Of a stretch of 64,000 nucleotides of DNA, positions 21,995 through 58,350 are shown one piece after another (the first letter of the stretch is position 1; each line of letters opens with the position of its first letter). Both the position numbers and the translations under genes were made by a program. The notes beneath the pieces were generated by a model. The model was not told where the DNA came from. It was given only the letters and a program-made list of their open reading frames with translations, and did no database searches. The stretch is from the NCBI RefSeq assembly GCF_000384215.1, contig NZ_KB913032.1:9199605-9263604 (forward strand), in the 5' to 3' direction. This stretch comes from Amycolatopsis alba DSM 44262 (lineage in GTDB: Bacteria > Actinomycetota > Actinomycetes > Mycobacteriales > Pseudonocardiaceae).

Positions 21995-22513
21995 ATGACG
22001 AAACCTCACGCGACCAAGAACCTCGACCGTTACGGCTCCGCGGAACTGCCGTGGAGCCGCCCGCGCGACATCCTCGCCGAGGACACGCCGACCGCCGACC
22101 TGACCTTCTTCGTGACGACCGTGCGACCCGACGGTCGTCCGCACTCGGCGGGTGTCGGGGCGGTCTGGGTGGACGGCGCCCTGTATTTCAAGGGCGGGCC
22201 CGGCACCCGACGCTCCCGGAACCTGGCGGTGAACCCGGCGTGCGCCGTTTCGGTGCGGCTACGGGGTATCGACCTCACGCTGGAGGGCGAGGCGCACCGC
22301 GTCACCGACGCCGCGACCCTGGAGAAGGTGGCGGCGGTCTACCGGACCGGCGGCTGGCCCGCGACGGTGGAGGGTGACGCGCTCACGGCTCCTTTCAGCG
22401 CGCCCAGCGCGGGCCCGCCGCCCTGGCACCTGTACCGCCTCACCCTGCACCGCGCCATCGGCGTCGCGGGCGCCGAACCGCACGGCGCCACCCGCTGGGA
22501 CTTCGCCCCCTGA
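21995..22513 (+). CDS. Pyridoxamine 5'-phosphate oxidase-fold protein (FMN/F420-type split barrel)
   Basis: A 172-residue split-barrel protein: LTFFVTTVRPDGRPHSAGVGAVWVDGALYF (about residues 33-62), then the conserved RRSRNLAVNPACAVSV. Members of this superfamily bind FMN, F420 or haem and act as reductases or oxidases. The exact cofactor cannot be read here. The ATG of MTKPHATKNLD is preferred over an upstream in-frame GTG that falls in the sigA terminator region. It converges on the secreted-protein gene across the 21-bp repeat array. Confidence 0.78.
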   Translation: MTKPHATKNLDRYGSAELPWSRPRDILAEDTPTADLTFFVTTVRPDGRPHSAGVGAVWVDGALYFKGGPGTRRSRNLAVNPACAVSVRLRGIDLTLEGEAHRVTDAATLEKVAAVYRTGGWPATVEGDALTAPFSAPSAGPPPWHLYRLTLHRAIGVAGAEPHGATRWDFAP

Positions 22514-22521
22514 CTCCCGCG

Positions 22522-22657
22522 ACTCGCGTGATCAGGCACGTAACTCGCGTGCTTGGAGACGGAACTCGGGTGTGCGGCAGCCAGTCACGCGAGTTCCGCC
22601 TCTGATCACACGAGTTCCGCCTTCAAGCACGCGAGTCACGGCTCCGATCACGCGCGG
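22522..22657. repeat. Array A: 21-bp-pitch word array, inverted about a centre
   Basis: The words ACTCGCGTG (22522), ACTCGCGTG (22543) and ACTCGGGTG (22564) are followed by the inverted words CACGCGAGT (22586), CACACGAGT (22607), CACGCGAGT (22628) and a degenerate CACGCG (22649). Spacing within each half is exactly 21 bases, and the first three pairs are symmetric about 22579. The 12-base spacers differ between the halves, so this is not one simple hairpin. It fills the gap between two convergent genes, and the last word enters the end of the secreted-protein gene. See array B at 39784. Confidence 0.85.
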
Positions 22658-23847
22658 CCGGTCAAGGTGGTCCAGGGGACGTGCACGGTCACCCGTTCCC
22701 GGAGCTGCTCGTTCATCAGCCACAGCTCCCCCGTCGCGGGCCAGTACGACAGGTTCTGCGAGTTCACCGGCGCCTGGCCGCTCAGCCGCGACGTCGAGGT
22801 GCCGCCGACCCCGCCGTGCAGGCACGACGGGTGGTCGCCCGCCACCCCGGCGTACTCGGGGCACACCCCGGTCATCACGAAGTATCCGTTGCGCGCCACC
22901 GCTCCCTGCATGCCCCACACCGGCGACACGAACCCTTCCTTCGCGTGCACGGTCCCGTCGGCCGACACCTTGGGCAGGCCGGTCGCGCGGTCGAAGGGCC
23001 AGCGCAGCACCCGGCTCCCGGCCGCGTTGGAAATGTGCTCGGAAGTCACGATCGAGCCGTCACCGTGGTCGAAGGACATCGTCGACAGGCACGGCCGCGG
23101 CCCCGGCGCGTTGGTGCAGGACCCGCCGCCGGGGTACCAGTACGCGCCGATCTGCGGCATGGCGTAGTCGTAGAACGCCGCGTGGTACTTGCCGTCCGGG
23201 CCCTTCCCGACGACGCCGGAGCTGTCGTCGACCTTCCAGAAATGCGTCGTGTCGAAGACCCGCACCACACCGCCGGTGGTCGCGACGAACAGCCGGTTCC
23301 CGATCCAGGTCATGCCGTGCCCGTGTCCCTGCACGACGGCGAAGTTGTCGTCCGACGTCGGCTCGACGAGCAGCACGTGCCGGTAGCCCAGCCCGGTCGC
23401 GTCCACAAAGGACAGCCGGACCATGGTGTCGCCGGGGGTGTGCCACGACGTCGCGACGACCCGTTTGCCGCCGACCTTCCCGGTCGCCGCGTCGGCGTCG
23501 CCGGACCCGGTCAGTCCCTGCGGGATCCAGTCGTTGGTCTTGTCGTCATTGGCGTCCTCCCAGCAGAATCCCGCCGGTTTCAGCGCCGCCGCGAGATACG
23601 TGCCGTGGCACAGCGGCCGCGCCTTCCGGTTCGCCGTCGACAGGATCTCCGGCAGGCCACGCGCCGGGAGCTTCTTCTCCAGTGCGGCGATCCGCGCGCC
23701 GTAGACGTCGAAGGTCGTCCCGGACGTCCAGCGGAAGCCGTCGACCGTGGCCGCGTCCATCCGGGGGAAGGCGGCCGCGGCGGAGGCGACTCCGGGGATG
23801 AGGGCGAACACCAGCAGCAGCGAAGCGAGCAGTCCCAGCCTCTTCAT
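22648..23847 (-). CDS. Secreted protein of unknown function
   Basis: A 399-residue protein with a clear Sec signal peptide (MKRLGLLASLLLVFALIPGVASA, cut after about residue 23) and no further membrane segment. The mature part has six Cys (in PLCHG, GFCWED, GSCTN, RPCLS, GVCPE and PSCLHG), enough for three disulphides. It also has several short beta-rich stretches (WIGNRLFVATTGGVVRVFD) that read like propeller blades. I do not recognise a catalytic motif. The frame is open 22 codons further upstream, but the signal peptide fixes the ATG. Confidence 0.75.
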   Translation of the reverse strand: MKRLGLLASLLLVFALIPGVASAAAAFPRMDAATVDGFRWTSGTTFDVYGARIAALEKKLPARGLPEILSTANRKARPLCHGTYLAAALKPAGFCWEDANDDKTNDWIPQGLTGSGDADAATGKVGGKRVVATSWHTPGDTMVRLSFVDATGLGYRHVLLVEPTSDDNFAVVQGHGHGMTWIGNRLFVATTGGVVRVFDTTHFWKVDDSSGVVGKGPDGKYHAAFYDYAMPQIGAYWYPGGGSCTNAPGPRPCLSTMSFDHGDGSIVTSEHISNAAGSRVLRWPFDRATGLPKVSADGTVHAKEGFVSPVWGMQGAVARNGYFVMTGVCPEYAGVAGDHPSCLHGGVGGTSTSRLSGQAPVNSQNLSYWPATGELWLMNEQLRERVTVHVPWTTLTGRA

Positions 23848-23893
23848 GCCCGCGAGGTTCCCCGCCGCGCGCATAAGTTCGATACAAACCTTG

Positions 23894-29126: not shown

Positions 29127-29173
29127 CCCATCCCGCAGGCTTTCGCGCTCGGCTGCCGGCACGTTTGCCGGTT

Positions 29174-29238
29174 CCGGGTGTCGCGAAAGCCACTTTCGGG
29201 ACGTCCAGTGTCTCGAAAGTGGCTTTCGCGACACCCGG
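29174..29238. repeat. 25-bp perfect hairpin, GAAAGTGGCTTTC family
   Basis: The left arm runs 29174-29198 and the right arm 29214-29238, exactly complementary over 25 bases; the core is CGAAAGTGGCTTTCGCGAC on the right. The 15-base loop holds GGACGTCC. It lies in the 272-base gap between the response regulator and an APC permease. The same core and part of the loop recur at 46611-46663. No T-tract follows. Confidence 0.8.
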
Positions 29239-29348
29239 CACTGCCGGAGCGCGCTGGACCGGGGTGGGTCTTGAGCCCACCCCGTCCTGGACGGACTGAA
29301 GTCCCACCGATCTGCGAGGTGGGCGGCGATCTTCTAGCGTGAGCCTTC

Positions 29349-38283: not shown

Positions 38284-39420
38284 TCAGGAGATACCGAGCT
38301 GCGTGCACGCCGCGGCCAGGTCGCCGCCGCAGATCTCGGCGGCCTTGACGTAGCCCTGCGTCACGACCTCCTTGACACCGTCCTTGGTGGTCAGCTTCGG
38401 CTCGAGGAGCACGGACTTGACCTCGCGGTTGCCCTTCGGGTCCTTCGCCTTGCCGGTGGCCAGCGCGTCGGCGCCCGCCTTGTCGCCCTTGGCCAGCAGG
38501 ACGGCGAGCTTCGCCGCGGCCTCGGCCTCTTCCTTGATGGGCTTGAAGACCGTCATGTACTGGTCGCCGCGCAGGATCGCCATGAGGCCGTCCGCGGTGG
38601 CGTCCTGGCCGGTGACCGGGACCTTGCCGTTGAGGCCGTTCTTCTTCAGCACGGTGATGACCGCGCCGGCGAGACCGTCGTTCGCGGCGACGACGCCGTC
38701 GACCTTGCCCTTGTTGTCGGTCAGGATCTGCTCGAAGGTCTGACCGCCCTTCTGGTTGTCCCAGTTGTCGATGGCCTGTTCGCGCACGAGCTTGAGGTCG
38801 TTGCTGGCGAACTTCGGCTGCAGGACGGACTTCTGGCCGTTGGCGAACAGGGTCGCGTTGTTGTCGGTCGGGGCACCCTCGATCATGACGACCTCGGCGC
38901 CCTTCTTGTCCTTCAGCGCGTCGGCGAGGCCCTGGCCCTGCAGCTGGCCGACCTTCTCGTTGTCGAACGAGACGTAGTAGTCGGAGCTGCCGCCGAGGTT
39001 CAGGCGGTCGTAGTCGATCGTCGGGATGCCCGCGGCCTGCGCCTTGCGGGCGACCGCCGCGCCGACCTCGCCGTTGATGGCGGCGATGATCAGGACCTTG
39101 ACGTTCTGCGCGATCATGCCGTCGGCCAGCGTGGTGAACTTCTGGACGTCGCCCTGCGCGTTCTGGACGTCGGCGTCGAAGCCCGCGTCCTTGAGCGCCT
39201 TGGTCAGGAACGGCTTGTCGAAGGACTCCCAGCGCGCGGAGGTGGCGGTCTCCGGCAGGATGACACCGACCTTGCCACCGGCGGCGGCACCGCCGGGGGC
39301 GGGCGCGGACTGCGAGGAGTTGCCGCTGCCGCTCGAGTCGGCGGTGTTGGCGCCGCAGGCGGAGAGCACCAGGCCGGCGCCCACCGTCGCGGCGAGGAGG
39401 GTAAGGGTTCTGCTGCGCAT
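38284..39420 (-). CDS. Sugar ABC transporter substrate-binding lipoprotein (XylF type)
   Basis: A 378-residue extracellular lipoprotein. The signal peptide ends in the lipobox LSAC (Cys at about residue 22), followed by a Ser/Gly linker. The mature domain is a periplasmic-binding type 1 fold with GKVGVILPE, VLIIAAINGEVG, IPTIDYDRL and PVTGQDATADGLMAIL, close to D-xylose-binding XylF. GAAGGAACGAGG precedes the ATG. It is the first gene of the operon; a long palindrome lies 62-88 bases upstream. Xylose is the best guess for the ligand. Confidence 0.88.
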   Translation of the reverse strand: MRSRTLTLLAATVGAGLVLSACGANTADSSGSGNSSQSAPAPGGAAAGGKVGVILPETATSARWESFDKPFLTKALKDAGFDADVQNAQGDVQKFTTLADGMIAQNVKVLIIAAINGEVGAAVARKAQAAGIPTIDYDRLNLGGSSDYYVSFDNEKVGQLQGQGLADALKDKKGAEVVMIEGAPTDNNATLFANGQKSVLQPKFASNDLKLVREQAIDNWDNQKGGQTFEQILTDNKGKVDGVVAANDGLAGAVITVLKKNGLNGKVPVTGQDATADGLMAILRGDQYMTVFKPIKEEAEAAAKLAVLLAKGDKAGADALATGKAKDPKGNREVKSVLLEPKLTTKDGVKEVVTQGYVKAAEICGGDLAAACTQLGIS

Positions 39421-39481: not shown

Positions 39482-39508
39482 GCATATGTTGTGGGCGACA
39501 ACATATGC
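39482..39508. promoter_or_regulatory. Putative ROK-repressor operator
   Basis: Perfect 11-bp inverted repeat GCATATGTTGT (39482-39492) and ACAACATATGC (39498-39508) with spacer GGGCG, 62-88 bases upstream of the substrate-binding protein start. The A/T content stands out locally. It suits a dimeric repressor; the ROK protein encoded last in this operon is the natural candidate. Confidence 0.6.
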
Positions 39509-39676: not shown

Positions 39677-39699
39677 GCAATGAACGGTCCGTTCCTTGC
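39677..39699. repeat. GAACGG/CCGTTC hairpin, copy 1
   Basis: GCAATGAACGG (39677-39687) and CCGTTCCTTGC (39689-39699) pair with one mismatch around a single T. A sister copy lies at 40002. The two bracket array B. Confidence 0.6.
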
Positions 39700-39783
39700 A
39701 CGGGCGCGAAGGCGAGACGCACGGTCACCAGGTGCGGAGGGTGACCGGGCGTTCGTCGACGACTTCTGAACCGAACTGACGGT

Positions 39784-39937
39784 CACGCGTGGCTGGATGG
39801 ACGACACGCGTGATCCGACGGACGACACGCGTGCTTGGACGGACGACACGGTGTGCGGCCGGGTCCGCCGCGAGTCGTCCGCCTGAACACGTGTGTCGTC
39901 CATCCAGTCACGCGTGTCGTCCATCCATACACGTGTG
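39784..39937. repeat. Array B: 21-bp-pitch word array, inverted about a centre
   Basis: The words CACGCGTG at 39784, 39805 and 39826 and CACGGTG at 39847 are followed by inverted words at 39888 (CACGTGTG), 39909 (CACGCGTG) and 39930 (CACGTGTG). The pitch is exactly 21 bases in each half, and the pairs are symmetric about 39860.5. A degenerate CCGCGAGT at about 39868 fills the fourth inverted position. After each forward word come ATC, CTTGGA and TGCGGC in the second to fourth units, the same order as in array A. Units end in GGACGA. The array lies between the sugar importer promoter and the helicase 3' end. Confidence 0.85.
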
Positions 39938-40001
39938 TCGTCCGGGTCCAGCAGTCCGCACTCAAGACACTCACGCCCCCGACTCTCACCGCGCCCATGC
40001 A

Positions 40002-40018
40002 ATGAACGGGCCGTTCAT
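40002..40018. terminator. Hairpin after the helicase gene (GAACGG/CCGTTC, copy 2)
   Basis: Perfect 8-bp arms ATGAACGG (40002-40009) and CCGTTCAT (40011-40018) around one G. It lies 20 bases beyond the helicase stop on the reverse strand. It is short, without a T-tract, but well placed to terminate. Confidence 0.5.
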
Positions 40019-40037
40019 AGCGTTCGGTACGGGGCGG

Positions 40038-41792
40038 TTACCAGGTGCGGAGGGTGACGATGCGCTCTTCGAGCTGTTCCACCGTCGCCATCGCGGTCGG
40101 CGGCCCGCCGCAGATCCGGCGCAGCTCGTTGTGGATCGCGCCGTGCGGTTTCCTCGTCCGGTGATGGATCACGCCCACCAGCGCGTTCAGCTCCTTGCGC
40201 AGGGCGCCGAGCCGCTCGCTGACCGACTGCGACCGTACGACCGGCGCCGCCTCTTCGGCCTTGGGCTTGCGCCGCTTCTCGTCGGAGAGCTGCTCCTCCT
40301 GCCGCTTCCGCAGCAGGGCGCGGACCTGGTCCGGTTCGAGCAGCCCCGGCAGGCCGAGGTACTCCTGCTCCTCGTCGGAACCGGAGAACACCGCGGTGCC
40401 GAAGGAGTTGCCGTCGTAGATGACCTGGTCGAGCTCGGCGGAGGCGCCCAGCGAGGTGAACGCCTTCTCCTCCTCGCCCGGCTCGTCCTCGGTGCGGTTG
40501 GCCTGGGCGAGGAGTTCGTCCTCCCAGCCGTCCTTCTCGCGGTGCGGTTTGCCGAGGACGTGGTCACGCTGCGCTTCCAGCTCGCTGGCCAGTTCCAGCA
40601 GCACCGGCACGCTCGGCAGGAAGACCGAAGCCGTCTCGCCGGGTTTGCGCGAACGCACGTAGCGGCCGATGGCCTGCGCGAAGAACAGCGGCGTCGACGC
40701 GCTCGTGGCGTAGACGCCGACGGCCAGGCGCGGGACGTCGACGCCCTCGGACACCATCCGGACCGCGACCAGCCAGCGGTCGGTCGAATCGGAGAACTCC
40801 TTGATCCGCCCGGACGCCTTGGGATCGTCGGAGAGGACGACCGTCGGGGTCTGGCCGGAGAGCCGCTCCAGGATCTTGGCGTAGGCGCGCGCGGAGTCCT
40901 GGTCGGTGGCGATCACCAGGCCGCCGGCGTCCGGGATGCCGTTCGCGCGAAGCTGCGCGAGGCGCGTGTCCGCGGCCTGCAGCACCGCCGGGACCCACTC
41001 GCCCGCCGGGTCGAGCGCGGTGCGCCAGGCCCGCGCGTTCTGCTCGGCCGTCAGCGGCTCGCCGAGCCTCGCGGTGAACTCCTCCCCCGCGCTCGTGCGC
41101 CAGGAGGCCTCACCGGAGTAGGCGAGGAAGACGACCGGCCGGACCACGCCGTCGGCGAGCGCGTCGGCGTAACCGTAGGAATGGTCGGACTTGCTGCGCT
41201 GGAAGCCCGAACCGTCGGGCTCGTAGGTGACGAACGGGATCTGCGAGTCGTCGCTGCGGAACGGCGTCCCGGTCAGCGCGAGACGGCGGACGGCGGGCGT
41301 GAACGCCTCGCGGATCGCGTCGCCCCAGGACTTCGCGTCACCGCCGTGGTGGATCTCGTCGAGGATAACCAGGGTCTTGCGGTTCTCGGTGCGCACGCGG
41401 TGCAGCGTCGGATGCGCCGCGACCTGCGCATAGGTCACCGCGACACCTTGGTAGTCGCGGGAGGTCGCGCCGGCGCCGTTGCGGAAGTTCGAGTCGATCG
41501 CGATCCCCGCGGCCGCCGCCGAGGCGGCCCACTGGTGCTTCAGGTGCTCCGTCGGCGCGACGATGGTGATCTTCTCGATGGTCCGGTCGCTCAGCAGCTC
41601 GGCGGCGATCCGGAGCCCGAACACCGTCTTGCCCGCGCCCGGCGTCGCGACGGCCAGGAAGTCCTGCGGTTTCTTCGTCAGGTACTTCGTCAGCGCGCGG
41701 CGCTGCCAGGCACGCAGCGGGCGGGCGGTGCTGTCCTTCGCCGCGGGAGGCGCGCCCAGCTCGCCTCGATCGCGTTCAACCGTTTCCGCCAT
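40038..41792 (-). CDS. Superfamily 2 DEAD/DEAH-type helicase
   Basis: A 584-residue SF2 helicase. Motif I is ATPGAGKT (about residue 48), motif II VILDEIHH, motif III ALTGTPFR, motif V RMVSEGVDVPRL and motif VI AQAIGRYVRSR. The C-terminal 150 residues are charged and helical and not recognised. It belongs to a stand-alone actinobacterial group related to SSL2/RadD-like proteins, probably acting in DNA repair or unwinding. The ATG of MAETVERDR has AGGAGGGG eight bases upstream; an in-frame start seven codons earlier overlaps that site. Confidence 0.87.
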   Translation of the reverse strand: MAETVERDRGELGAPPAAKDSTARPLRAWQRRALTKYLTKKPQDFLAVATPGAGKTVFGLRIAAELLSDRTIEKITIVAPTEHLKHQWAASAAAAGIAIDSNFRNGAGATSRDYQGVAVTYAQVAAHPTLHRVRTENRKTLVILDEIHHGGDAKSWGDAIREAFTPAVRRLALTGTPFRSDDSQIPFVTYEPDGSGFQRSKSDHSYGYADALADGVVRPVVFLAYSGEASWRTSAGEEFTARLGEPLTAEQNARAWRTALDPAGEWVPAVLQAADTRLAQLRANGIPDAGGLVIATDQDSARAYAKILERLSGQTPTVVLSDDPKASGRIKEFSDSTDRWLVAVRMVSEGVDVPRLAVGVYATSASTPLFFAQAIGRYVRSRKPGETASVFLPSVPVLLELASELEAQRDHVLGKPHREKDGWEDELLAQANRTEDEPGEEEKAFTSLGASAELDQVIYDGNSFGTAVFSGSDEEQEYLGLPGLLEPDQVRALLRKRQEEQLSDEKRRKPKAEEAAPVVRSQSVSERLGALRKELNALVGVIHHRTRKPHGAIHNELRRICGGPPTAMATVEQLEERIVTLRTW

Positions 41793-42054
41793 GCGGTTCC
41801 CCTCCTCCCTCACCGAAACCCCTGGTCAATCGCCCTGTCACAAGCGAAAACCCCCACTTGGGTATCCGGCCGCGACGCCGGCGCCTGAGGTGAGGGCACT
41901 CCGAAGAGCCTACCTGCCGGTCTCGTGGAACGCCGGAAGCGCCACCCCCGTTGTCGGGTTACTCACCCGAAAACCCAGGGGTGGCGAGCCGAATGCCGCA
42001 GCATGGACCATGCTGGACACCGTCAAGGGCGCCCGGCGCCGGCGGAGGAGCTGC

Positions 42055-46610: not shown

Positions 46611-46663
46611 GTCGCGAAAGCCACTTTCGGGACGTCTGATGTCCCGAAAGTGGCTTTCGCGAC
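46611..46663. repeat. 23-bp perfect hairpin, GAAAGTGGCTTTC family
   Basis: The left arm runs 46611-46633 and the right arm 46641-46663, exactly complementary, with loop GTCTGAT. Arms and most of the loop match the hairpin at 29174. It is the first of three long hairpins in the 455-base gap between the convergent RND and secreted-protein genes, a gap that holds no gene. Confidence 0.85.
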
Positions 46664-46706: not shown

Positions 46707-46751
46707 TGAAGGGGACTTTCCGCTCGTGTGTTGAGCGGAAAGTCCCCTTCA
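46707..46751. repeat. 19-bp perfect hairpin in the RND/secreted-protein gap
   Basis: The left arm starts TGAAGGGGACTTTCC at 46707-46725 and the right arm ends GGAAAGTCCCCTTCA at 46733-46751, with loop GTGTGTT. All 19 base pairs are perfect. It sits 43 bases after the previous hairpin. Confidence 0.83.
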
Positions 46752-46780: not shown

Positions 46781-46835
46781 TGTCTCAAGGGGCCCCTTCA
46801 GGACGCTCAACGTCCTGAAGGGGCCCCTTGAGACA
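46781..46835. repeat. 25-bp perfect hairpin in the RND/secreted-protein gap
   Basis: The left arm 46781-46805 and right arm 46811-46835 are exactly complementary (outer TGTCTCAAGG, inner CAGGACG), with loop CTCAA. Each arm also contains the self-palindrome GGGGCCCC. It ends 68 bases before the secreted-protein stop on the opposite strand and may terminate that gene. Confidence 0.83.
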
Positions 46836-51426: not shown

Positions 51427-51453
51427 CCCCGCAGCCTTAGCCCCATGGCTTAA

Positions 51454-51508
51454 GTCCGTGAAGGACTCCTTGAGGGACTCTGAGTCCCTCAAGGAGTCCT
51501 TCACGGAC
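51454..51508. terminator. 55-base perfect palindrome after psuK
   Basis: The left arm 51454-51480 and right arm 51482-51508 are 27 bp and exactly complementary around a single T. It begins GTCCGTGAAGG and has GAGGGACTC-T-GAGTCCCTC at the centre. It lies between the convergent psuK and DUF3099 genes and is probably a bidirectional terminator. A sister copy lies at 58296. Confidence 0.82.
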
Positions 51509-51533
51509 TCGCGTGGTGCACGCGCGAAACGCG

Positions 51534-58295: not shown

Positions 58296-58350
58296 GTCCG
58301 CGAAGGCCTCCTTGAGGGACTCTGAGTCCCTCAAGGAGGCCTTCACGGAC
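58296..58350. terminator. 55-base palindrome after fumarase, sister of the 51454 copy
   Basis: Arms of 27 bp (58296-58322 and 58324-58350) around a single T, with one mismatch. The centre GAGGGACTC-T-GAGTCCCTC is identical to the copy at 51454. The base pair after GAAGG is C-G here and A-T there, a compensatory change. It begins eight bases after the fumarase stop, between convergent genes. Confidence 0.83.

Follow-up and report, generated by a model that had tools for sequence, protein, structure and literature searches.

A dispersed repeat family at gene 3' ends of Amycolatopsis alba and a possible role of its array B in ending transcription

The 64,000-nucleotide stretch of the Amycolatopsis alba genome analysed here (the window) carries two arrays of inverted 21-bp units, A and B, which are two members of one repeat family dispersed through the genome. 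Array B is a copy of this 3'-end repeat, of which the genome holds at least 58, and on its modelled structure and its position it may act, as a tentative reading, as a bidirectional transcription terminator or insulator. What is observed is the family itself, the pitch of its words, its usual inverted layout in this genome, its placement at 3' ends and between convergent genes, the duplication of whole elements, and other long hairpins that stand at orthologous gene ends. There is no settled account of how transcription ends with weak U-tracts in high-GC actinobacteria, particularly where genes converge; this family marks gene ends by the dozens in half of the 80 genus genomes, beside or replacing other hairpins.

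Layout of the two arrays and their genome-wide family

In array B, at positions 39784-39943, words of the CACGCGTG type follow each other every 21 bp and are inverted about the centre (Table 1). Three words of the first arm are exact and the fourth, in slot 39847, is the degenerate CACGGTGT; the inverted words read CACGTGTG at 39888, CACGCGTG at 39909 and CACGTGTG at 39930, and the lattice slot at 39867 is degraded to CCGCGAGT. Each half makes an arm of 67 nt, and the two arms are 81% complementary. The hexamers following the words are GCTGGA, ATCCGA, CTTGGA and TGCGGC in array B and ATCAGG, CTTGGA and TGCGGC in array A, array B having one extra outer unit (GCTGGA). The unit tails are CGGAA or CGTAA followed by CTCGCGTG in array A, and GGACGA followed by CACGCGTG in array B. 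This layout had been described in an earlier sequence-only reading and it held on inspection: all words of array B lie where they had been placed, a fourth inverted slot included, array A (read over 22523-22656) has the same plan, the order ATC, CTTGGA, TGCGGC is common to both, and the unit tails differ. Single words with at most one mismatch are rarer in the window than expected by chance (41 versus 91).

Table 1. Arrays A and B and the genes next to them (positions in the window)
Feature	Coordinates	Strand	Remarks
Array B, first arm	39784..39853	+	words 39784, 39805, 39826 exact, 39847 degenerate; 21-bp pitch; B-type tails GGACGA
Array B, apex region around the inversion axis	39854..39866	.	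TGCGGC module starts at its edge; similar apex module in other arrays
Array B, second arm	39867..39943	-	slot 39867 (CCGCGAGT) and inverted words 39888, 39909, 39930
Array A, A-type family member, inverted, between convergent genes	22523..22656	.	same plan as B; fold z -7.55
Helicase-like gene (ResIII, DEAD)	40038..41813	-	stop codon 100 bp from array B
Sugar-binding ABC transporter protein (Peripla_BP_4), next gene downstream	38284..39420	-	start per codon-usage caller; 363 bp from B
PNPOx-like gene	21995..22513	+	ends 9 bp before array A
ORF without Pfam match, converging on array A	22648..23874	-	end overlaps outermost degenerate word of A

The whole-genome scan that this reading had proposed found the word pair CWCGYGTG-N13-CWCGYGTG 257 times (133+124 matches) in the 9.81-Mb genome, and the reversed-pattern control gave 0+0; the pair at this spacing is far commoner than chance would give. 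The same pitch emerges when no pattern is imposed: among intergenic repeated 9-mers in 17 evenly spaced 20-kb stretches, lag 21 is represented by 69 pairs and lag 42 by 28, the next lag having 13. The array set comprises 58 members, read from 59 clusters (one array had been counted in two loci), and by word orientation 33 of them are inward, 7 outward, 7 complex and 11 one-armed. Each arm mostly has 2-4 units of 21 bp around an 8-bp near-palindromic word, and two tail subtypes, ..CGGAA+CTCGCGTG and GGACGA+CACGCGTG, are both common and also occur mixed within arrays.

The common origin of A and B proposed in the sequence-only reading is supported insofar as both belong to this family; the proposed constraint on the ordered variable bases is not supported. 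Only 1 of 48 arms with three words has ATC-CTT-TGC, and that one is array A; array B and L041 (at 12685) show the same series and went uncounted, each having one word that is too degenerate. From outer to inner unit, ATC precedes CTT 13 times and CTT precedes ATC 10 times, and these family-wide counts rule out the ordered hexamers as a code. The hexamers are drawn from a small vocabulary (ATCAGA, CTTGRA and others). A slot preference does speak for the earlier proposal, CTT being found in 19 of 68 hexamers in slot 2 and 3 of 48 in slot 3 (p=0.0035). Several arrays share TGCGGC at the apex, where sequences such as CCGCACACCCGAGTGCGGC recur, and this accounts for its last place in both A and B.

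Whole elements are also duplicated. A 321-bp query around one B-type array matches copies at 95%, 89% and 95% (272 nt), and its outer 60-nt palindrome is found in dozens of places, with 120 matches overall. One composite element of 320 bp (L194, at G000:C1:3442559-3442879; also L195 and L196) joins a B-type array to a palindrome of about 60 nt on one side (GTCGTGAGCGGTCAGGACGG..). The element would spread by copying. Whole elements of about 320 bp lying elsewhere at 89-95% identity are what is expected of a REP-like repeat, selfish or neutral and functionless in itself, which is simply tolerated behind stop codons, insertions close to promoters being eliminated. Such a repeat is a real alternative to a role in ending transcription, although on the evidence as a whole we doubt it somewhat. 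The exactness of the pitch despite wide divergence of the tails argues against it: in a search that left the spacing open, the words were separated by exactly N13 in 49 of 50 pairs of one genome (G072) and 26 of 29 of another (G003).

The exact pitch, kept while tails differ between genomes, also suits another explanation, in which a protein binds each 8-bp word along one face of the helix, 21 bp being two helical turns, and the resulting lattice blocks RNA polymerase or insulates, with the hairpin as a by-product. Words facing each other across the inversion axis are spaced by 21, 41-42 or 62-64 bp in 35 inward arrays, which were hand-picked from the 58, the palindromic axis word being assigned by eye in a few and arrays with odd spacings, complex and one-armed arrays being left out; the peaks of the pooled lags between inverted words lie at 63, 84 and 42. 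However, a few of the genome's own arrays have other spacings, of 10 (L007), 45 (L051) and 94 (L012), and the phasing may follow from palindromic words together with shared descent. A recurrent palindromic axis in G323 (N20, 28 bp) lies off the 21-bp lattice as well, and no candidate protein was found, one family (Y1 transposase) having been examined. We regard a binding lattice as unlikely.

Position at gene ends and distribution among genomes

Array positions were read against gene calls from a purpose-written codon-usage caller (757 genes, 84% coding), which are not an annotation. All 58 arrays except L012 could be placed: 34 lie in convergent, 20 in tandem and 3 in divergent gaps, the last of which may be miscalls. 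They are found mostly behind stop codons, and three of the 57 overlap a called gene end by 9-20 bp. Compared with 195 array-free gaps of at least 150 bp (23 convergent, 102 tandem, 70 divergent), arrays are in excess between convergent genes (p=1.4e-12) and in deficit between divergent ones (p=1.7e-6). Within tandem gaps the array is closer to the upstream stop in 16 of 20 cases (p=0.012); within convergent gaps a median of 34 bp separates the exact-match core from the nearer stop, and at array A the two converging genes end 9 and 12 bp from the core.

BIMEs of enterobacteria have been proposed as gyrase or nucleoid-protein sites that relieve supercoils. The convergent placement and the alternating orientation of the arrays would fit sites of this kind, acting between convergent genes, yet near-absence from 40 of the 80 genus genomes would be odd for a general need, and we consider this explanation very improbable.

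The gene end occupied by array B (the B slot) has a word pair within 330 nt in 9 of the 80 genomes, 7 of which belong to the 19-genome clade of the window. Each of the remaining 12 clade members has another long hairpin in this slot (score at least 38), whereas outside the clade a hairpin of that score is present in 6 of 61 genomes and absent in 55. At the corresponding A slot, where hairpins were read by eye, the 19 genomes comprise 4 with A-type arrays, 2 with B-type arrays, 7 with other hairpins, 4 with a different neighbour gene, 1 that is empty (16-bp gap) and 1 that was not classed; the upstream gene of G014 was matched by a short piece only. Array length varies between species, as G074 has five or six units per arm versus three or four in the window, and both arms lengthen together. 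The other hairpins in all 12 array-less clade members, and arrays at both orthologous slots in several species, are points against a neutral repeat. Three of the seven array carriers in the clade (G074, G052 and G063), however, have both an array and another long hairpin in the same gap, so replacement of one by the other is not strict. This sharing of gaps by unrelated hairpin families, seen in the window's own genome also, weakens the reading of the array as a terminator and strengthens that of a neutral repeat.

Other long hairpins in this genome likewise favour convergent gaps, with 20 of the 40 outside genes found there versus 19 of 130 gaps; the survey covered 17 even stretches and the window and gave 45 hairpins, 5 of them inside genes. 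Those in the window lie at 29171-29241, 46611-46663, 46707-46751, 46781-46835, 51453-51509 and 58296-58350, and some are members of families with further copies in the stretches sampled (GTGAAGGCCTCCTTGAGGGACTC.., GTCGCGAAAGCCACTTTCGGGAC..).

The exact A-type pattern, when sought in named genomes, matched in Amycolatopsis only (19 stretches). Counting the window's own, 51 of the 80 genus genomes have one word pair or more, and the copy number is bimodal even among close relatives, with 0-6 pairs in 40 genomes and 22-436 in the other 40 (reversed control, 0-3). The 40 rich genomes require 9 changes on a helicase-gene tree, versus 27.1 in shuffles, and at least 5 are forced by well-supported branches, which indicates several wholesale gains or losses of the family. 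The sister species G034 and G042 within the clade have 4 and 0 word pairs, versus 41-436 in the other 17 members, and other hairpins occupy their B slot; this scarcity reflects either wholesale loss there or gain in the other clade members. Six array-poor genomes were sampled for another word in 19 stretches of 20 kb (G024, G069, G030, G005, G042, G034), and lag 21 is absent from their eight top lags; in G034, lag 42 (7 pairs) is found among other lags. Carriage by plasmids or phages was rejected, array B having no match among plasmids and array A none among phages.

In a survey of the order, 36 of 298 genomes had a match, many of them single and no commoner than in the reversed control, and three genomes of other genera (G217, G323 and G355) had tens of matches. 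The pitch is kept there while the tails differ, the word itself being fixed by the search pattern. In six other genomes 21 arrays (23 loci minus two shifted duplicates) are distributed as 12 convergent, 9 tandem and 0 divergent. The inverted-repeat score is at most 12 in 14 of these 21, compared with medians of 28 for the arrays of the window's genome and 9 for random stretches, and 8 of 12 tested arrays fold no lower than z -2.0 on either strand.

These distributions bear on more than one reading. The bimodal copy number, even in close relatives, suits a neutral repeat; genome-wide presence or absence also fits a trans-acting factor, and arrays without hairpin potential at the same 3' ends would be expected of a binding lattice. 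Going further, the sequences would allow a two-part system of the Pseudonocardiaceae, in which a dedicated protein would read CWCGYGTG every two turns and close transcription from both sides. On gain or loss of this protein a species would acquire or purge its arrays wholesale, and unrelated hairpins would take over the gene ends. Such a candidate protein is hypothetical and the arrays, if the idea is true, would be the visible half; we judge it distinctly improbable.

Predicted folding and the ending of transcription

The RNA of array B is predicted to fold at -137.3 kcal/mol (z -11.05) and that of array A at -93.4 kcal/mol (z -7.55). When every third of the 58 arrays was sampled, 15 of 20 had z values of -3.9 or lower, and the predicted stems have a median of 60.5 nested pairs with flanks included (58 arrays). 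In seven orthologs of array B 95.7% of cells stay paired, through sequence conservation; no covariation was found among these seven, as 1 of 40 pairs is altered on both sides and shuffles do equally well. The arms of one A-type array pair no better with each other than with arms of different arrays (p=0.50), while the corresponding value for B-type arrays is p=0.038. Compensation between arms as proof of RNA structure was accordingly discarded, being absent within A-type arrays and in the B orthologs. The two results together make pairing look like a property of the family consensus and of the orientation of the arms that is not separately maintained in each array. Both the lack of covariation in the B orthologs and the lack of arm matching in the A type are what a neutral repeat predicts. 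The A or B tail subtype agrees between the arms of the same array, which common descent explains equally well. Of 50 positions tested, one (position 15) showed an anti-match between arms (p=0.0056), which is not significant after correction.

No Rfam family matched the window at gathering score; below that score the hairpin gave miRNA-type and VA RNA matches, the best with an E-value of 0.001. A search of both strands for terminator-like sites with a T-run gave none at A or B.

In the proposed mechanism, the inverted arms would allow RNA from either strand to fold into one very long hairpin, the units would pair in the cell, and RNA polymerase would stop at the array without a U-tract. Where the neighbouring genes converge, the array would close transcription from both sides. 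The fixed word and pitch could be readable by a protein as well. A role in ending transcription is supported by the convergent bias, the position near stop codons, the stable predicted folds and the other hairpins at the same gene ends; counter to it are the absence of a T-run, the absence of covariation and the one-way arrays that occupy the same places elsewhere. Mycobacterial RNA polymerase is said, in the title of one paper, to need a U-tract. According to a Term-seq study of Streptomyces, terminators there have few Us together with the longest and most stable hairpins, the A-tracts typical of bidirectional terminators are virtually absent, and Rho may act more often (PMC12207403). An array serving as a terminator would suit an actinobacterium in the light of these stable hairpins with few Us. 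Sister species that have the array, another hairpin or nothing at one gene end constitute a natural experiment on transcript ends.

Known repeat systems and the surroundings of array B

The arrays, with their predicted GC-rich hairpins, resemble actinobacterial intrinsic terminators in hairpin stability and in position, shortly after a stop codon or where two genes converge; for such terminators the Streptomyces study reports weak U-tracts (PMC12207403). The array stems differ in being far longer and built of repeats, in having no T-run at A or B and in forming a dispersed sequence family. An array may work like a canonical intrinsic terminator, but it is not one, as it has no U-tract.

REP and BIME elements are similar to the arrays in their high copy number, extragenic location, alternating orientations, ability to form hairpins and patchy occurrence among relatives. 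Unlike these single palindromes of 20-40 bp, the array is built of 21-bp tandem units. In the REP literature a REP is a palindrome of 20-40 bp, one end of which carries an unpaired tag, GTAG or CGTC. B-type tails contain GACG/CGTC, which is missing from most A-type tails, and the predicted hairpin of array B has its CGTC in a paired position. The Y1 transposase (IS200/IS605-type, PF01797) was found in 0 of 80 genus genomes by a search that detects it in 5 of 14 control genomes, and RAYT mobilisation was rejected on this result; the family is REP-like, but no RAYT-type transposase was found for it in these genomes. The word Amycolatopsis is absent from the main texts of two REP papers, and none of the matches listed in the open-access literature describes the 21-bp repeat.

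Iteron and operator arrays have a helical pitch and lie at origins or promoters. Their likeness to the present arrays is a short near-palindromic word every two helical turns; the present arrays, in contrast, lie behind genes, amount to 257 word pairs and have no known binding protein. The exact two-turn pitch of a conserved word is present in the family and is not kept across the 28-bp axis of G323.

Several minor features surround array B. An open frame that crosses the array reads like a repeat protein, which calls for caution by annotators. About 315 bp downstream there is a second copy of the helicase-like gene's 3' end and of the palindrome that follows it, with array B between the copies. 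The duplicated pieces are 39722-39759 / 40035-40072 and 39677-39699 / 39999-40021, with identities of 84% and 87%, and they are probably what is left of a partial duplication. The palindrome GCATATGTTGT-N5-ACAACATATGC, at 39482-39508 in front of the sugar-binding protein gene, is possibly an operator of the transporter operon; the same palindrome precedes that gene in many of the 30 B-slot loci read and in several more in the reading of the 80 genomes.
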